From the IMG/VR virus record IMGVR_UViG_3300043637_000004, positions 1 through 58,262 of that record: 58,262 bases of DNA, one strand, 5' to 3'. Positions 47,718 through 57,763 of this stretch are shown here, one piece after another. The translations under genes were made by a program, and so were the position numbers. The notes beneath the pieces are model-generated. The model made no database searches and was not told where the DNA came from. It saw nothing but the letters and a program-made list of their open reading frames with translations. The stretch comes from a virus. Positions within the stretch are counted from its first letter, which is position 1. Every line of letters begins with the position of its first letter.

Positions 47718-47791
47718 TGGAGCGGGCCGCCGGAATCGAACCGGCGTGATCTGCTTGGAAGGCAGAAGCCTTGCCACTCGGCCAGGCCCTC
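47718..47791 (-). tRNA. tRNA-Gly (anticodon TCC)
   Basis: 74 bases on the minus strand, with encoded CCA. All arms fold: acceptor with an A2-G71 mismatch, D stem GCC/GGC, anticodon stem TCTGC/GCAGA with loop CTTCCAA, variable TCAC, T stem GCCGG/CCGGC with loop TTCGATT. U73 fits glycine identity; the usual C2-G71 pair is lost. It sits at the convergence of the late and leftward operons. Confidence 0.9.
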
Positions 47792-47965: not shown

Positions 47966-48041
47966 TGGATGCGGGGGCCGGACTCGAACCGGCGACCATC
48001 GCGTTATGAGCGCGACTCTCTACCAACTGAGCTACCCCGCG
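47966..48041 (-). tRNA. tRNA-Met (anticodon CAT), initiator-like acceptor
   Basis: 76 bases, minus strand, encoded CCA. T8-A9 fixes the first base as C, giving acceptor CGCGGGG/CCCCGCA with a C1-A72 mismatch, as in bacterial initiator tRNA. The anticodon loop CTCATAA also matches the initiator. The anticodon stem TCGCG/CGCGA lacks the initiator G-G-G/C-C-C run, and the D stem GCTC/GAGA is elongator-like with a G10-A25 mismatch. Discriminator is T. Met is the most likely charge; a lysidine-type Ile tRNA is less likely. Confidence 0.88.
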
Positions 48042-48047
48042 GCGTGA

Positions 48048-48410
48048 TTATGGCGCGGGCGCCGGGTGGGCGGCCCTGAACGCTTCGTGCTCGGCGGTCT
48101 CGCGGTCGAACATGGCTTGCGCGCCGCCTTCGGCGTAGGCCGCATCCAGGTCCGGTAGGTGTCCTGGGCCGGCCAGCGTGTTGCAGATCCATTCCATGCA
48201 TGCACCCAAGCCCTCCAGGTTGCCATCGACGTAGGCGGCCCGAAGCGCCAGGATGTGGGCGTTCAGCGCATCGCCGAGAACGACGGCCCGGCGCTCGCTG
48301 CTGGCGGCCCCGACCGCGATGCCGGCGGCAAACAACTCCATATCCTCCAATGTGGGCACCACGCCCGGGAACCTTCGATTCCACGCGGCGGCGGCTTGTT
48401 CACTGTTCAT
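48048..48410 (-). CDS. 120-residue hypothetical protein
   Basis: ATG at 48410 (MNSEQAAAAWNRRFPGVVPT). Helical body VLGDALNAHILALRAAYVDG, LGACMEWICNTLAGPG. It overlaps the upstream gene by 11 bases. Last protein gene of the leftward operon before the tRNAs. Confidence 0.55.
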   Translation of the reverse strand: MNSEQAAAAWNRRFPGVVPTLEDMELFAAGIAVGAASSERRAVVLGDALNAHILALRAAYVDGNLEGLGACMEWICNTLAGPGHLPDLDAAYAEGGAQAMFDRETAEHEAFRAAHPAPAP

Positions 48411-48570
48411 CGTCGTTCTCCAGTTCGTCGGGTTGCCGTGCATCCGGGTGGATGAGCGGGCTGTTGATGGCCCGCCGCTTGGCATACGCGATGCGCGCCT
48501 CCAGCGACTGGTGGCCAAGCTCGCGCAGGGCGTCTGCGCGGTCGAAGTCGAAATGCTCGGCCTGGTTCAT
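48400..48570 (-). CDS. 56-residue hypothetical protein
   Basis: MNQAEHFDFDRADALRELGH, then IAYAKRRAINSPLIHPDARQ. ATGA overlap with the upstream gene. Acidic tail. No family. Confidence 0.5.
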   Translation of the reverse strand: MNQAEHFDFDRADALRELGHQSLEARIAYAKRRAINSPLIHPDARQPDELENDDEQ

Positions 48571-49369: not shown

Positions 49370-49467
49370 GGTTTTCTCCAAGGTCTGCGCAGCACGTCGG
49401 CCAGCGCGTAAAACAAGCCGGCCAGCACGAAGCCGACCACGGTGGCGATGATGGAACGGCGCTTCAT
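49366..49467 (-). CDS. 33-residue membrane peptide
   Basis: MKRRSIIATVVGFVLAGLFY followed by ALADVLRRPWRKP: one transmembrane helix with basic ends. GTGA and ATGA overlaps on its two sides support it. Confidence 0.5.
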   Translation of the reverse strand: MKRRSIIATVVGFVLAGLFYALADVLRRPWRKP

Positions 49468-49922
49468 TGGTCACATCCTTTGCCGATCTGGCCGCGGTCA
49501 TCATGAGCCGTGAAGCGCTCAAAATGTACCCAACCGCCCACGCAATGGAACCCCCATTCACGGTAGGCTGGTCCGGTGATGAACAGCGTCCAGCACGGGC
49601 CCGCATGCAGCTCAATGCGATGCGCGAACTTGCCGCTTGGACGCACGCGCCACGCGCCCTGCCGAAGCAGGCGACGGCGGTGCACACCGCCCGCTGCAAT
49701 GGTGTGCTCGGTGTACTCGCCGCGGAGCAGCAGCGAGAAGTTTGCCCACGGATGGTCATGCATCGCCCGGTCATCGTCGCTGCGCAGGAAGTGGTGCAGG
49801 TAGACGTTGAAAAGCTTGTTGCGCGGCAGGATGTGCCATCGAAGCATGTAGGGGTCATCGTGGCCGCCGATCACCAGATCCGGCTGGCGTTGCGTTATGC
49901 GGTGGATGAACCGATGGATCAC
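49464..49922 (-). CDS. Cupin-like phage protein
   Basis: 152 residues from GTG at 49922, chosen because GGGGAGG precedes it and it makes the usual GTGA overlap. DDDRAMHDHPWANFSLLLRG, EYTEHTI gives a HDH...E cupin metal pattern; FAHRIELHAGPCWTLFITGP supplies the second half. Such cupins occur in many phages; role unknown. Confidence 0.7.
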   Translation of the reverse strand: MIHRFIHRITQRQPDLVIGGHDDPYMLRWHILPRNKLFNVYLHHFLRSDDDRAMHDHPWANFSLLLRGEYTEHTIAAGGVHRRRLLRQGAWRVRPSGKFAHRIELHAGPCWTLFITGPAYREWGFHCVGGWVHFERFTAHDDRGQIGKGCDQ

Positions 49923-50176
49923 GGCCGCCTCCCCGCTGTGCACATGGCCGCCACGAACACTTGGTCGTGTGCCAGCGGCCGGCCCCAGAGGATGAGCGCC
50001 TGCACGCGGTCGGCGCTTACGCCGTGGTCGCGCGGCGGAGGCGGGACCCAGCGGCAGCCGATCTCAAGGCCGGTGCTGGTGCGGTAGACCAGCTTCCCGC
50101 CGGGCCTGTCTCCCATGCGAGCGAAGCCGGTCCTGGCGCGCAGCACGCGCGGAGACACCATGCTGACGGCGCCCAT
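49919..50176 (-). CDS. 85-residue hypothetical protein
   Basis: MGAVSMVSPRVLRARTGFAR then LEIGCRWVPPPPRDHGVSAD, then VQALILWGRPLAHDQVFVAA. Overlaps the upstream gene by ATGA. Family unknown. Confidence 0.5.
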   Translation of the reverse strand: MGAVSMVSPRVLRARTGFARMGDRPGGKLVYRTSTGLEIGCRWVPPPPRDHGVSADRVQALILWGRPLAHDQVFVAAMCTAGRRP

Positions 50177-54497: not shown

Positions 54498-54881
54498 TCA
54501 GCGCAGCGCGTGCACGACGGCGCGGAAGATGAAGTCCTTCGCCTGCTGCTCGCGGGGCAGTTCGGCGAACTGGACCATGCAGGGATGCTGCTTCAGGTCT
54601 GGAGCCTTGACTGGTCCATAGGTCCAGCCGTCTTCGAGCTTCTGCTTCATCCAGCTGATGTGCGATGCCTCCGGCCCGAAGTCGCCGGAAAGGTGCAGGT
54701 CCACGCCCATGCGCGCGCTCTCGCGCTGCCATTGCGGCGCGTCTTCCCATGCCGGCTGGCTGTCGTCTCCCAGCGCCTGGCAGTAGGCGCGGTTCACCTC
54801 GTGGCACACGCGGGCGATGCGGTCCATATTCTCGCGCGGGTCTGCTTGGGCCGTGGGCCCGTTGTAGTCTTGGTCTGGCAT
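54498..54881 (-). CDS. RyR-domain protein
   Basis: 127 residues. ARVCHEVNRAYCQALGDDSQ, PAWEDAPQWQRESARMGVDL, SHISWMKQKLEDGWTYGPVK, FAELPREQQAKDFIF is the RyR domain pattern seen in bacteria and phages. In other systems it may bind nucleotide-derived ligands; here the function is unknown. Confidence 0.8.
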   Translation of the reverse strand: MPDQDYNGPTAQADPRENMDRIARVCHEVNRAYCQALGDDSQPAWEDAPQWQRESARMGVDLHLSGDFGPEASHISWMKQKLEDGWTYGPVKAPDLKQHPCMVQFAELPREQQAKDFIFRAVVHALR

Positions 54882-54932: not shown

Positions 54933-55361
54933 CTATTGATCTACGGATTGAGCATCACGGCCCAGCGATGTAGGCGACCATTGCACCCCCTTGCCATCAC
55001 CGAACGCATGAAGAAAATCTATCAATTCGGTCATCTCTGCAATGGTCATCTTGCTGGTTCGCTGGCCCAGCACGACGAACCCGCCGTCAATGCCAGGCAC
55101 CACGCGCTGCCGCTTCAGCGCCGCAGTCGCCATGTCCTTCCATGCTTCTTCGTCGAGCGACTGGCCGTGCCAATCAACCTGCTTGGCAACGTCGGCAAGG
55201 CACGACCACATGAGGCTGTTCTGAGCCGTGCTGCGCGTGTCTGACACAAGACTGACGCGTAGGCGCTTCCCATCAAGCAATTCACCCTTGGCGTGCTGCC
55301 ACAGTTCCAGCCACTTCGCATGGCCCTGCTTTGCGTTCGCGAGCGTGGCGCTGATTCTCAT
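54933..55361 (-). CDS. ninB: NinB-like recombination protein
   Basis: 142 residues; lambda NinB has 146. RISATLANAKQGHAKWLELW, DTRSTAQNSLMWSCLADVAK, QVDWHGQSLDEEAWKDMATA, QRTSKMTIAEMTELIDFLHA follow the NinB (Orf) fold, which binds single-stranded DNA and helps SSB displacement by RecFOR. ATGA overlap with the upstream HNH gene; part of the recombination module. Confidence 0.88.
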   Translation of the reverse strand: MRISATLANAKQGHAKWLELWQHAKGELLDGKRLRVSLVSDTRSTAQNSLMWSCLADVAKQVDWHGQSLDEEAWKDMATAALKRQRVVPGIDGGFVVLGQRTSKMTIAEMTELIDFLHAFGDGKGVQWSPTSLGRDAQSVDQ

Positions 55362-55804
55362 GGCGCCACCTCCGCACCTAGCACGCTGGCCCGCACCAGC
55401 GCCAGCAGGTCCATCTCTGCTCCGTACAGCTTCTCGAACCGGGCTTTCCACGGATGCCGGCTGACCAGGCCGAGCGGCTGGCCGCCCTGGTGGTGCCCTG
55501 GATCGCACAGCGGCAGCGTGAACAGATGCCCGATGCGCCTGCCGCCGCGCAGGATGTGGTGCACCGCCGTCGGCCGCGGCTGCTGCCCGTCCAGCCGGCA
55601 GGCGATGCAGCCCAGCGACACGATGCTGGCCATCCACGCGGATTCTTCCGTGGTCGGAGTGCTCCGGCCGGTCCTGGACACCGGATCCTTCGGCGCGGCC
55701 ACCACGGCGCCGGTGGAGCGCGCCATCACGCCGCGCCCAGTGCCTTTCTTCGGCGCGGAGCGCACGCGCTGCAGCGTGGGGCGGGAGAAGCCGGTACGCT
55801 TCAC
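55358..55804 (-). CDS. HNH nuclease-like recombination protein (Ref-like)
   Basis: 148 residues from GTG at 55804 (GTGA overlap). SIVSLGCIACRLDGQQPRPT, AVHHILRGGRRIGHLFTLPL, CDPGHHQGG forms a Cys/His HNH-type site as in the P1 Ref-like and related phage proteins. Ref is a RecA-dependent nuclease; here the role is inferred from the motif and neighbours. Confidence 0.65.
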   Translation of the reverse strand: MKRTGFSRPTLQRVRSAPKKGTGRGVMARSTGAVVAAPKDPVSRTGRSTPTTEESAWMASIVSLGCIACRLDGQQPRPTAVHHILRGGRRIGHLFTLPLCDPGHHQGGQPLGLVSRHPWKARFEKLYGAEMDLLALVRASVLGAEVAP

Positions 55805-56019
55805 GACTTCGGCTCCAGGCACGCCATCTTCAGCTTCACGATGTCGCTGTCCCCGTTTGGCGGTGCCGAGAAGATGACGCGCCCCCGTTGCTTCTCTGCG
55901 GCGGCCCACCGCAGCATCGTCAGGGCTTCTTCGACCACCTGCTTGTTGGTCTTCAGGCCCAACGACTCGCGCAGGCGCTGCATGGTGTCGCCTGGAATGA
56001 CCAGATCAATGCGTTCCAT
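55801..56019 (-). CDS. Ribbon-helix-helix-like protein
   Basis: 72 residues. MERIDLVIPGDTMQRLRESL, GLKTNKQVVEEALTMLRWAA matches the strand-helix-helix pattern of small RHH regulators. Start at 56019, with GAGGGGG upstream. It lies between exonuclease and Ref-like gene; could regulate this operon. Confidence 0.65.
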   Translation of the reverse strand: MERIDLVIPGDTMQRLRESLGLKTNKQVVEEALTMLRWAAAEKQRGRVIFSAPPNGDSDIVKLKMACLEPKS

Positions 56020-57763
56020 CACGCCCCCTCATCTTCAGCACGTGCTCGGCCAGCGCTTCGAGGATCTTGTTCCGCTGGCTGGGGTAGAACAGCACCCCGC
56101 GGGCTCCGGCCGGTGGCGTGGGCTTGGCGATCCGCAGCGTCTCGGTGATGAACGCCTCGCTCATCGTGATGCCACTGCCGAGAGATGCGTTCAGGTCGCC
56201 CAGCTTCATCGTGGCTTCCTCCTTCGTGGCCGGCCACGGCGAGGCCGCTACGACGCGGCCCACATGGAAATGGCGGGCGGTGGTGACGGCGACAGGCACC
56301 TCAAGCTCCAGCGCGGGCTGTACAACCGGGGTTGCGGCCGGCGCCACGGCTTCGGCGGCCTGCTGGGCCAGCACTTCCGCGGCCTTGCGGGCATCCTCGC
56401 GGGCTTCCGAGGCCTTGCGCGCCGCCTCCGCGGCTTCGTCGGCCCGGCGGTTCTTCTCGGCCTCGGCGTCCTGGTGCGCCTTGATCCTCTGCTCGGCAAT
56501 GGCCTTGAAGTCGGCCACCGGCTTCGTGCCCAGGGCAGCGAAGTCGGCGAAGAGGAAGAACCAGTCGGTCCCGTCCACCTGAAGCGCCTTCCTGTTGTCG
56601 AACAACGTGGCGGCCACGTCGTTCAGCCGCAGCTTCTGGTTTGCCAGTTCCTGGGCGGCTGCGGCGCGTACGCTTTCCACGGTGCGCTTGCCCTTGATGG
56701 CCTCGCCGAACCCGCCCACGGCGCGCCCGATCCAGGCCGCGCCCAGGCGCTTGTTCAGGCCGGCCACGTGCTCGTCAAGTTGCTGCTGGTGCTCCTGCAC
56801 GAGCTCGACGCGGATAGACGCCTTGCGCTCGGTCACGAGCTTGTCCAGCGCCAGCCGCTTCGACCGCAGTTGCTCGGTGATGTGGTCCACCGTGCGGAAC
56901 AGCTCGTCGATGCTGGCCGTCTGCGCCAGCGCCTGATCCTTCACCAGCTTCAGCCGGTCCTCACCGTCCTGGCAGAACTTCACGGTCTGCGCGGCGTTGG
57001 CGAAGTCTTCGTCGGTCTTCAGGTCGGTCTTGATGCTGGCGATGAATCGCGTTGCCGCATCCTTGAACACGCCGATGTTGCTGCTGGTGACCTTGCCCTC
57101 CACGCGGATCATCAGCGCCGGCAGGGCCTCGATCACATCCACAACGGGGGCTGGCGGGGGCGGAGGCGCCGGCTGGTAGGTGGCCAAGTCGGCCTCAAAC
57201 TGCGCCCAGCCGGCCGCGATCTTGGCCGCCAGGTCCTTGTTCGGCTTGTACCAGCAGTGGCGCTCTTCCGACAGGTCGCTGTCGTCGGTCCACTCCGAGG
57301 CCATGAAAAGCACCTTGCTGCATCCGGACACCATGCACTGCTGCTCCATCTGCACTTGGTGGTGCAGCGGCAGGTCGGTTCCTTTGCAGCCCGGCTGCAT
57401 GATGGCGCGCAGTTCCTGGTTGAGGCGCTTGTGCTCGAATCCTACCGACTCGTCCATGGTCAGGCCGTCGTACGACGCCGACAGCCGGCCGGCGCTGCCG
57501 ACAACGGGGAAAAGTTCCTCCCCTAGGATTTCCTCGGCCAGCGGACGGGCCAGCGCCTCCCACTCGTGGCCCTTGTCCAGGATGCGCTCCTGCACGTAGT
57601 CGCTGAACTCGCGCGGCATGCCGGTGTGCACCTCGTGCATCAACTGCATCCGCGTCTTCGTCGGCGAGACGCCCAGCATGGCCGGGGCGTCACTTGCGTT
57701 CCAGTGCCGTGCCCTGTGGGAGGCCCACTCCGGCGACCCCTGGTCCAGTTGATGCGTGTCCAT
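56006..57763 (-). CDS. YqaJ-type viral recombinase exonuclease
   Basis: 585 residues. GSPEWASHRARHWNASDAPA, LGVSP, then SASYDGLT (D99), FEHKRL (E110, K112) and HHQVQMEQQCMVSG form the YqaJ/lambda-exonuclease site. The C-terminal half is a coiled-coil and Ala/Glu-rich region with an end block, much longer than the ~300-residue core. It digests one strand and hands over to ERF. The start overlaps the repeat-protein stop (TGATG). Confidence 0.92.
   Translation of the reverse strand: MDTHQLDQGSPEWASHRARHWNASDAPAMLGVSPTKTRMQLMHEVHTGMPREFSDYVQERILDKGHEWEALARPLAEEILGEELFPVVGSAGRLSASYDGLTMDESVGFEHKRLNQELRAIMQPGCKGTDLPLHHQVQMEQQCMVSGCSKVLFMASEWTDDSDLSEERHCWYKPNKDLAAKIAAGWAQFEADLATYQPAPPPPPAPVVDVIEALPALMIRVEGKVTSSNIGVFKDAATRFIASIKTDLKTDEDFANAAQTVKFCQDGEDRLKLVKDQALAQTASIDELFRTVDHITEQLRSKRLALDKLVTERKASIRVELVQEHQQQLDEHVAGLNKRLGAAWIGRAVGGFGEAIKGKRTVESVRAAAAQELANQKLRLNDVAATLFDNRKALQVDGTDWFFLFADFAALGTKPVADFKAIAEQRIKAHQDAEAEKNRRADEAAEAARKASEAREDARKAAEVLAQQAAEAVAPAATPVVQPALELEVPVAVTTARHFHVGRVVAASPWPATKEEATMKLGDLNASLGSGITMSEAFITETLRIAKPTPPAGARGVLFYPSQRNKILEALAEHVLKMRGRDGTH

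Follow-up and report, generated by a model that had tools for sequence, protein, structure and literature searches.

A phage-encoded tRNA(CAU) combining an initiator-type acceptor stem with an elongator-type D arm, and its possible role as a relaxed initiator tRNA

In bacterial initiator tRNAs, the main determinants of formylation sit in the acceptor stem, and the 29:41 and 30:40 pairs of the anticodon stem contact 16S G1338/A1339 (PMC4611024, PMC9976931, PMC7949028). Chimeric tRNAs bearing the initiator acceptor are formylated (PMC4611024). E. coli initiators with the 3GC mutation are charged and formylated, yet fail at initiation in wild-type cells (PMC10486304); deletion of host initiator genes, or a low level of formylation, makes them functional (PMC7949028). 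Low formylation also lets initiators with C1.A72 enter elongation, and E. coli is viable on a single formylation-weakened tRNA-Met (PMC7949028). Such engineered chimeras and 3GC mutants (PMC4611024, PMC7949028) share with the tRNA described here an initiator acceptor combined with non-initiator features, but they are laboratory constructs, whereas the present tRNA is encoded by a virus and inverts only the middle GC pair.

The gene for this tRNA is located in a virus record from IMG/VR (58,262 bases, 66% GC), the whole of which is referred to as the window. Its tRNA-Met and the surrounding features are as follows.

47966-48041, minus strand: tRNA(CAU) gene, initiator/elongator hybrid with CCA encoded (47966-47968); called by ARAGORN, matched by RF00005 (61.4 bits) and by two covariance models (R1/R2, 75.4/71.7 bits).
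48035-48041, minus strand: 5' strand of the acceptor stem, CGCGGGG, positions 1-7, C1 being 48041; same as in the E. coli initiator.
47970-47976, minus strand: 3' strand of the acceptor stem, CCCCGCA, positions 66-72, with A72 (47970) mismatched to C1, as read from the sequence and by Rfam; same as in the E. coli initiator.
47969, minus strand: discriminator U73, from comparison with bacterial initiators.
48016-48034, minus strand: U8-A9, elongator-type D arm with C11:G24 and a G10.A25 mismatch, and G26; assigned by sequence and D-arm identity.
47999-48015, minus strand: anticodon arm UCGCG-CUCAUAA-CGCGA with CAU at 48006-48008, G29:C41, inverted C30:G40 (48012/48002) and G31:C39, as read from the sequence.
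48048-48518, minus strand: ORF of 131-156 aa whose stop codon is 6 nt ahead of the tRNA 5' end; weak phrog_18739 match.
47718-47791, minus strand: tRNA-Gly(UCC) with CCA encoded, 174 nt downstream of the tRNA-Met; ARAGORN and Rfam.

ARAGORN reported the gene as tRNA-Met(cat), and the Rfam RF00005 match (E 6.7e-11) flagged 1:72 and 10:25 as non-standard pairs. Its sequence reads CGCGGGG TAGCTCAGTTGGTAGAGAG TCGCG-CTCATAA-CGCGA TGGTC GCCGG-TTCGAGT-CCGGC CCCCGCA U CCA. An earlier note on this DNA had proposed an initiator-type acceptor with a C1-A72 mismatch. This assignment holds: U8-A9 fix the register, C1 is preceded by another C, and no alternative 5' end improves the acceptor. Each of the 14 acceptor bases, and the CTCATAA loop as well, agrees letter for letter with E. 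coli initiator tRNA, as the note had stated, and its remarks that the GGG/CCC run of the anticodon stem had been lost and that the D arm resembled that of elongators were equally borne out. In addition to that description, we found that the tRNA has U73 instead of A73 and the G10.A25 mismatch.

Comparison with known classes revealed which features have been kept. Compared with the E. coli metZWV/metY-type initiator, the acceptor stem with C1.A72, the CUCAUAA loop, the CAU anticodon and most of the T arm are shared; these include the mismatch at 1:72 and the formylation pairs G2:C71 and C3:G70, together with G4:C69. On the other hand, the initiator run G29:C41, G30:C40, G31:C39 is interrupted by C:G at 30:40, C11:G24 takes the place of A11:U24 (purine 11:pyrimidine 24), and position 73 and the 10:25 pair also differ. 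Among distinct bacterial initiators, A11:U24, G30:C40 and G31:C39 were each present in 29/29, and the discriminator was A73 in 27/29 and C73 in 2/29. With elongator tRNA-Met(CAU) and tRNA-Ile2(CAU), the window tRNA shares the D arm UAGCUCAG..AGAG and pyrimidine 11:purine 24, but in these 1:72 is paired and the acceptor stems are different. A tRNA-Ile2 identity was ruled out by the acceptor stem, which has G4:C69 and G5:C68 and not the Ile2 acceptor; in E. coli tRNA-Ile2 these pairs are C4:G69 and C5:G68.

The two parts of the molecule also differ in their overall similarity. When compared with the CAU tRNAs of Pseudomonadota genomes, positions 27-76 reach 88% identity with initiators and no more than 74% with chromosomal elongators, whereas the D arm shows 85% identity with elongators and at most 65% with initiators. 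We built small covariance models of initiators (R1, 20 sequences) and CAU elongators (R2, 16 sequences), both from a single phylum (Pseudomonadota). Bacterial initiators scored 104-105 bits on R1 and 60-66 on R2, and elongators 62-63 and 98, respectively. The near-equal scores of the window tRNA, given above, indicate an intermediate and not a slightly worn member of either class. Other phage-borne hybrids, two of them from prophages in bacterial genomes, scored 69-92 on R1 and 62-88 on R2. The minimum free energy fold of the bare transcript has a distorted D arm (z -1.7) and is therefore not discriminating.

To describe the distribution of this combination, we used the exact pattern CGCGGGG-TAGCTCAG-N-CTCATAA-N-CCCCGCA, that is, the acceptor stem together with an elongator D arm and CAU. 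It was present in 78 IMG/VR contigs and in none of 84,980 bacterial and archaeal species genomes, so chance does not explain its occurrence; with position 12 left free, 398 Pseudomonadota genomes likewise gave no match. As a control, the canonical initiator with the same acceptor was detected in 27 of 60 genomes. When the C1 requirement was dropped and A72 kept, three matches appeared in the species genomes, all with G1·A72. Judged by eye from ORF translations, those of Bradyrhizobium cytisi and Jiella endophytica have phage head genes around them, and the third is at a contig end. In both prophages, the G1.A72 hybrid CAU tRNA (L211:1613-1689 and L212:6404-6478, respectively) belongs to a head-gene operon near the major capsid gene. 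Within the bacterial CAU tRNA set, a 1:72 mismatch and Y11:R24 occurred together only in the Bradyrhizobium prophage tRNA. No non-prophage bacterial elongator tRNA with C1-A72, a finding that would have spoken against the earlier note, was detected in the genomes searched. Its description of a hybrid with an initiator-type acceptor is thus in agreement with the anatomy, the covariance-model scores and this search.

Hybrids were also found in named isolates, namely Rhizobium phages B1VFA and RHph_X66, Xanthomonas phage RiverRider and Stenotrophomonas phage Philippe, where their sole label is tRNA-Met. All four share C1.A72 and the elongator-type D arm with the window tRNA, but they keep G30:C40 and A73, neither of which the window copy has. 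In many viral hybrids (L140, L141, L144, L160, L164, L177 and similar loci), the T loop begins with U54-G55-C56 (GGUGCGACUCC) and not U54-U55-C56. A literature search covering mostly open-access papers returned no paper describing the hybrid type. The window tRNA has all three of its features (1:72 mismatch, Y11:R24 and CAU), and judging from these sequences the hybrid is a recurrent phage-borne type and no peculiarity of the window phage.

Since the pattern that yielded the 78 contigs selects on the acceptor, a separate viral scan was based on a fixed elongator D arm and CAU, leaving the acceptor, T arm and discriminator free. This yielded 93 distinct usable tRNAs, 33 mismatched and 60 paired at 1:72. 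G2:C71 and C3:G70 were present in 29/33 mismatched versus 17/60 paired members (P-value = 2e-8), and in 17/19 versus 16/54 after clustering at 85% (P-value = 7e-6). Similarly, G29:C41 and G30:C40 occurred together in 27/33 versus 16/60 (P-value = 3e-7; 0.006 at 85% clustering). Both contrasts were weak after clustering at 80% identity (P-value = 0.012 and 0.035) and gone at 75%, where six mismatch clusters remain, so that shared ancestry is a real limit on these comparisons. G31:C39 was not enriched in the 33 mismatched tRNAs compared with the 60 paired ones. The mismatches themselves included C.A (18), A.A (7), G.A (3) and U.U (3); given this variety, it seems to be the absence of the pair that is retained. 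G30:C40 and A73 were each found in 31/33 mismatched members; at three places, C30:G40, U73 and G10.A25, the window copy deviates from its type. The simplest reading that fits this co-retention is that the hybrid type works in initiation, and the comparative pattern favors a role in translation initiation over the new mode of reading AUG that the earlier note had raised.

The genomic context of the type was examined in 28 virus records of 18-241 kb. About 13 of them have exactly one tRNA match, and in one further record a second match was found only below the Rfam cut-off. A general role in codon compensation was ruled out: AUG is a single codon and about half of these records carry the hybrid alone, and codon usage cannot explain why the only tRNA present should serve an amino acid with one codon. 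In the unbiased viral sample, a lone tRNA was observed for 19/33 mismatched versus 21/60 paired members, a borderline difference (P-value = 0.05). The hybrid is often part of a head operon: at loci picked by hand (L175, L182, L146, L169, L153, L187, L199), its nameable neighbors comprise genes for TerS, TerL, portal and major head protein. Prophages similar to phiLM21 in S. meliloti also have a single tRNA, called Met or fMet depending on the prophage (PMC12429752); compared by annotation alone, this split would fit tRNAs at a model boundary.

The window copy is not alone in a head operon; it is at an operon end, by lysis genes and beside tRNA-Gly(UCC), which itself abuts convergent lysis genes. 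It is probably co-transcribed with the ORF at 48048-48518, as the terminal part of a leftward operon. This small ORF also has a weak match to PADLOC DpdH, and the tRNA-Gly has an A2.G71 acceptor mismatch and U73. Farther along, 49464-49943 (minus strand) encodes a phage cysteine-dioxygenase family protein (phrog_4786, E 3e-55), with DNA similarity also in Gordonia and Mycobacterium phages and one Paraburkholderia phage, and 54498-54881 (minus strand), in the leftward operon, a RyR-domain protein (PF02026, above cut-off). An Erf-like annealing protein (305-1183), a RecA-dependent nuclease (55358-55804) and a RecE-like exonuclease (56006-57679) are all on the minus strand.

The head and replication genes of the window are of a Lessievirus-like phage type. 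TerL is ~52% identical to that of Burkholderia phage JC1, and Lessievirus phages of Burkholderia are its best relatives. Megablast against phages returned no close relative; TerL found nothing in the viral contigs searched and the portal protein only very weak matches, and prophage terminases in the 398 Pseudomonadota genomes reached at most 41% to the window TerL. At the end of its genome JC1 carries a serine recombinase, and its sole annotated tRNA is tRNA-Ser; the stretch of BcepIL02 examined has no annotated tRNA.

Based on these sequence comparisons, we suggest that the window tRNA is a phage-encoded initiator-type tRNA-Met with relaxed features, a reading to which we assign a probability of roughly 55%. 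Host MetRS would charge it, and host methionyl-tRNA formyltransferase (MTF) would be expected to formylate it because the determinants lie in the acceptor stem. Formylation would then direct it to IF2 and the P site and away from EF-Tu, and it could add to or replace the host initiator pool under heavy phage translation or when host initiator is damaged or in short supply. With C11:G24, U73 and C30:G40, it is predicted to be charged, formylated and licensed for the P site less well than the host tRNA, so that it would act mainly when the host initiator is limiting. Several observations count against the initiator reading: the three departures of this copy from its own type, its position at an operon end by lysis genes and tRNA-Gly, the inactivity of a full 3GC mutant in wild-type E. 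coli (PMC10486304), and the loss of significance of most comparative contrasts once sequences are clustered at 80% or lower. The window copy is an outlier and may be poor at initiating: with its inverted 30:40 pair and U73, it might represent a weak initiator, a tRNA of dual use or a relic at an early stage.

A stronger version is doubtful in our view. It holds that the hybrids form a subclass of initiator tRNA of the phages' own, absent from bacterial chromosomes outside prophages, which would selectively start phage proteins once host initiator is depleted, acting as an initiation switch. The putative subclass would keep the formylation signal and two P-site pairs and drop A11:U24 and often G31:C39.

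The same molecule might instead be kept as a replacement escaping host toxins or nucleases directed against initiator tRNA (VapC, AtaT-like acetyltransferases), the changed anticodon stem or D arm spoiling recognition. VapC is known to target initiator tRNA, and changes in the anticodon loop have been proposed as the means of escape for other phage tRNAs (PMC10264068). The altered positions do avoid the conserved acceptor and fall in the D arm and anticodon stem, but the CUCAUAA loop is unchanged from the host type and gives no support, and AtaT, which mainly reads acceptor G4-G6:C67-C69 (PMC7595197), would not be evaded since these pairs are unchanged. Moreover, phages tend not to encode tRNA-fMet where VapC is present (PMC10264068), and no tRNA-repair or defense-related gene was identified near the window tRNA. 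We consider this explanation unlikely.

A dual-purpose tRNA-Met, of which a formylated part initiates and the remainder binds EF-Tu and elongates, has a similarly low probability. In human mitochondria, a single tRNA-Met serves both initiation and elongation. The elongator-like D arm would fit such a role, and U73 and C11:G24 should slow formylation, a state in which C1.A72 initiators elongate (PMC7949028). However, the strongest formylation determinants are intact, and the type keeps the mismatch together with 2:71/3:70, as efficient formylation predicts.

It is improbable that the gene encodes an elongator tRNA-Met or represents a captured host initiator in decay, with the 1:72 mismatch reflecting functionless drift. 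The three further departures (C30:G40, U73, G10.A25), an Rfam score lower than those of most relatives and the likewise mismatched acceptor of the neighboring tRNA-Gly are consistent with decay. On the other hand, the anticodon stem is fully paired with the 30:40 swap compensated, and the encoded CCA, the T arm and a perfect acceptor at 2-7 argue against advanced decay; across the type, the mismatch also keeps reappearing alongside the determinants that accompany it.

It is highly improbable that the gene acts as an attachment-site tRNA, restoring or replacing a host initiator gene when the phage integrates (tRNA-dependent lysogeny included), and this reading was dropped: such systems exist (PMC10865867) and the 3' two thirds resemble host initiators, but no integrase or recombinase was found among the scanned ORFs (part of all ORFs in the window), a 653-aa ORF is unrelated to the serine recombinase of JC1, the D arm differs from the host-initiator type, and phiLM21 prophages carry a Met/fMet tRNA other than the one at their integration site (PMC12429752).

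Returning to the initiator-type reading, a handful of features regarded as near-universal define the initiator tRNAs of bacteria, and the phage set keeps some of them and drops others. These natural hybrids are an evolutionary experiment on which initiator features matter. The hybrid type is easily missed, because the named examples are labelled plain tRNA-Met. Initiation, and not codon supply, would be a concrete reason for a phage to have exactly one tRNA gene. The same mixture in dozens of phages, and in no searched bacterial chromosome outside prophages, suggests that phages keep an unorthodox start tRNA of their own, and a phage tRNA with such a relaxed stem may serve as a conditional initiator in infected cells.
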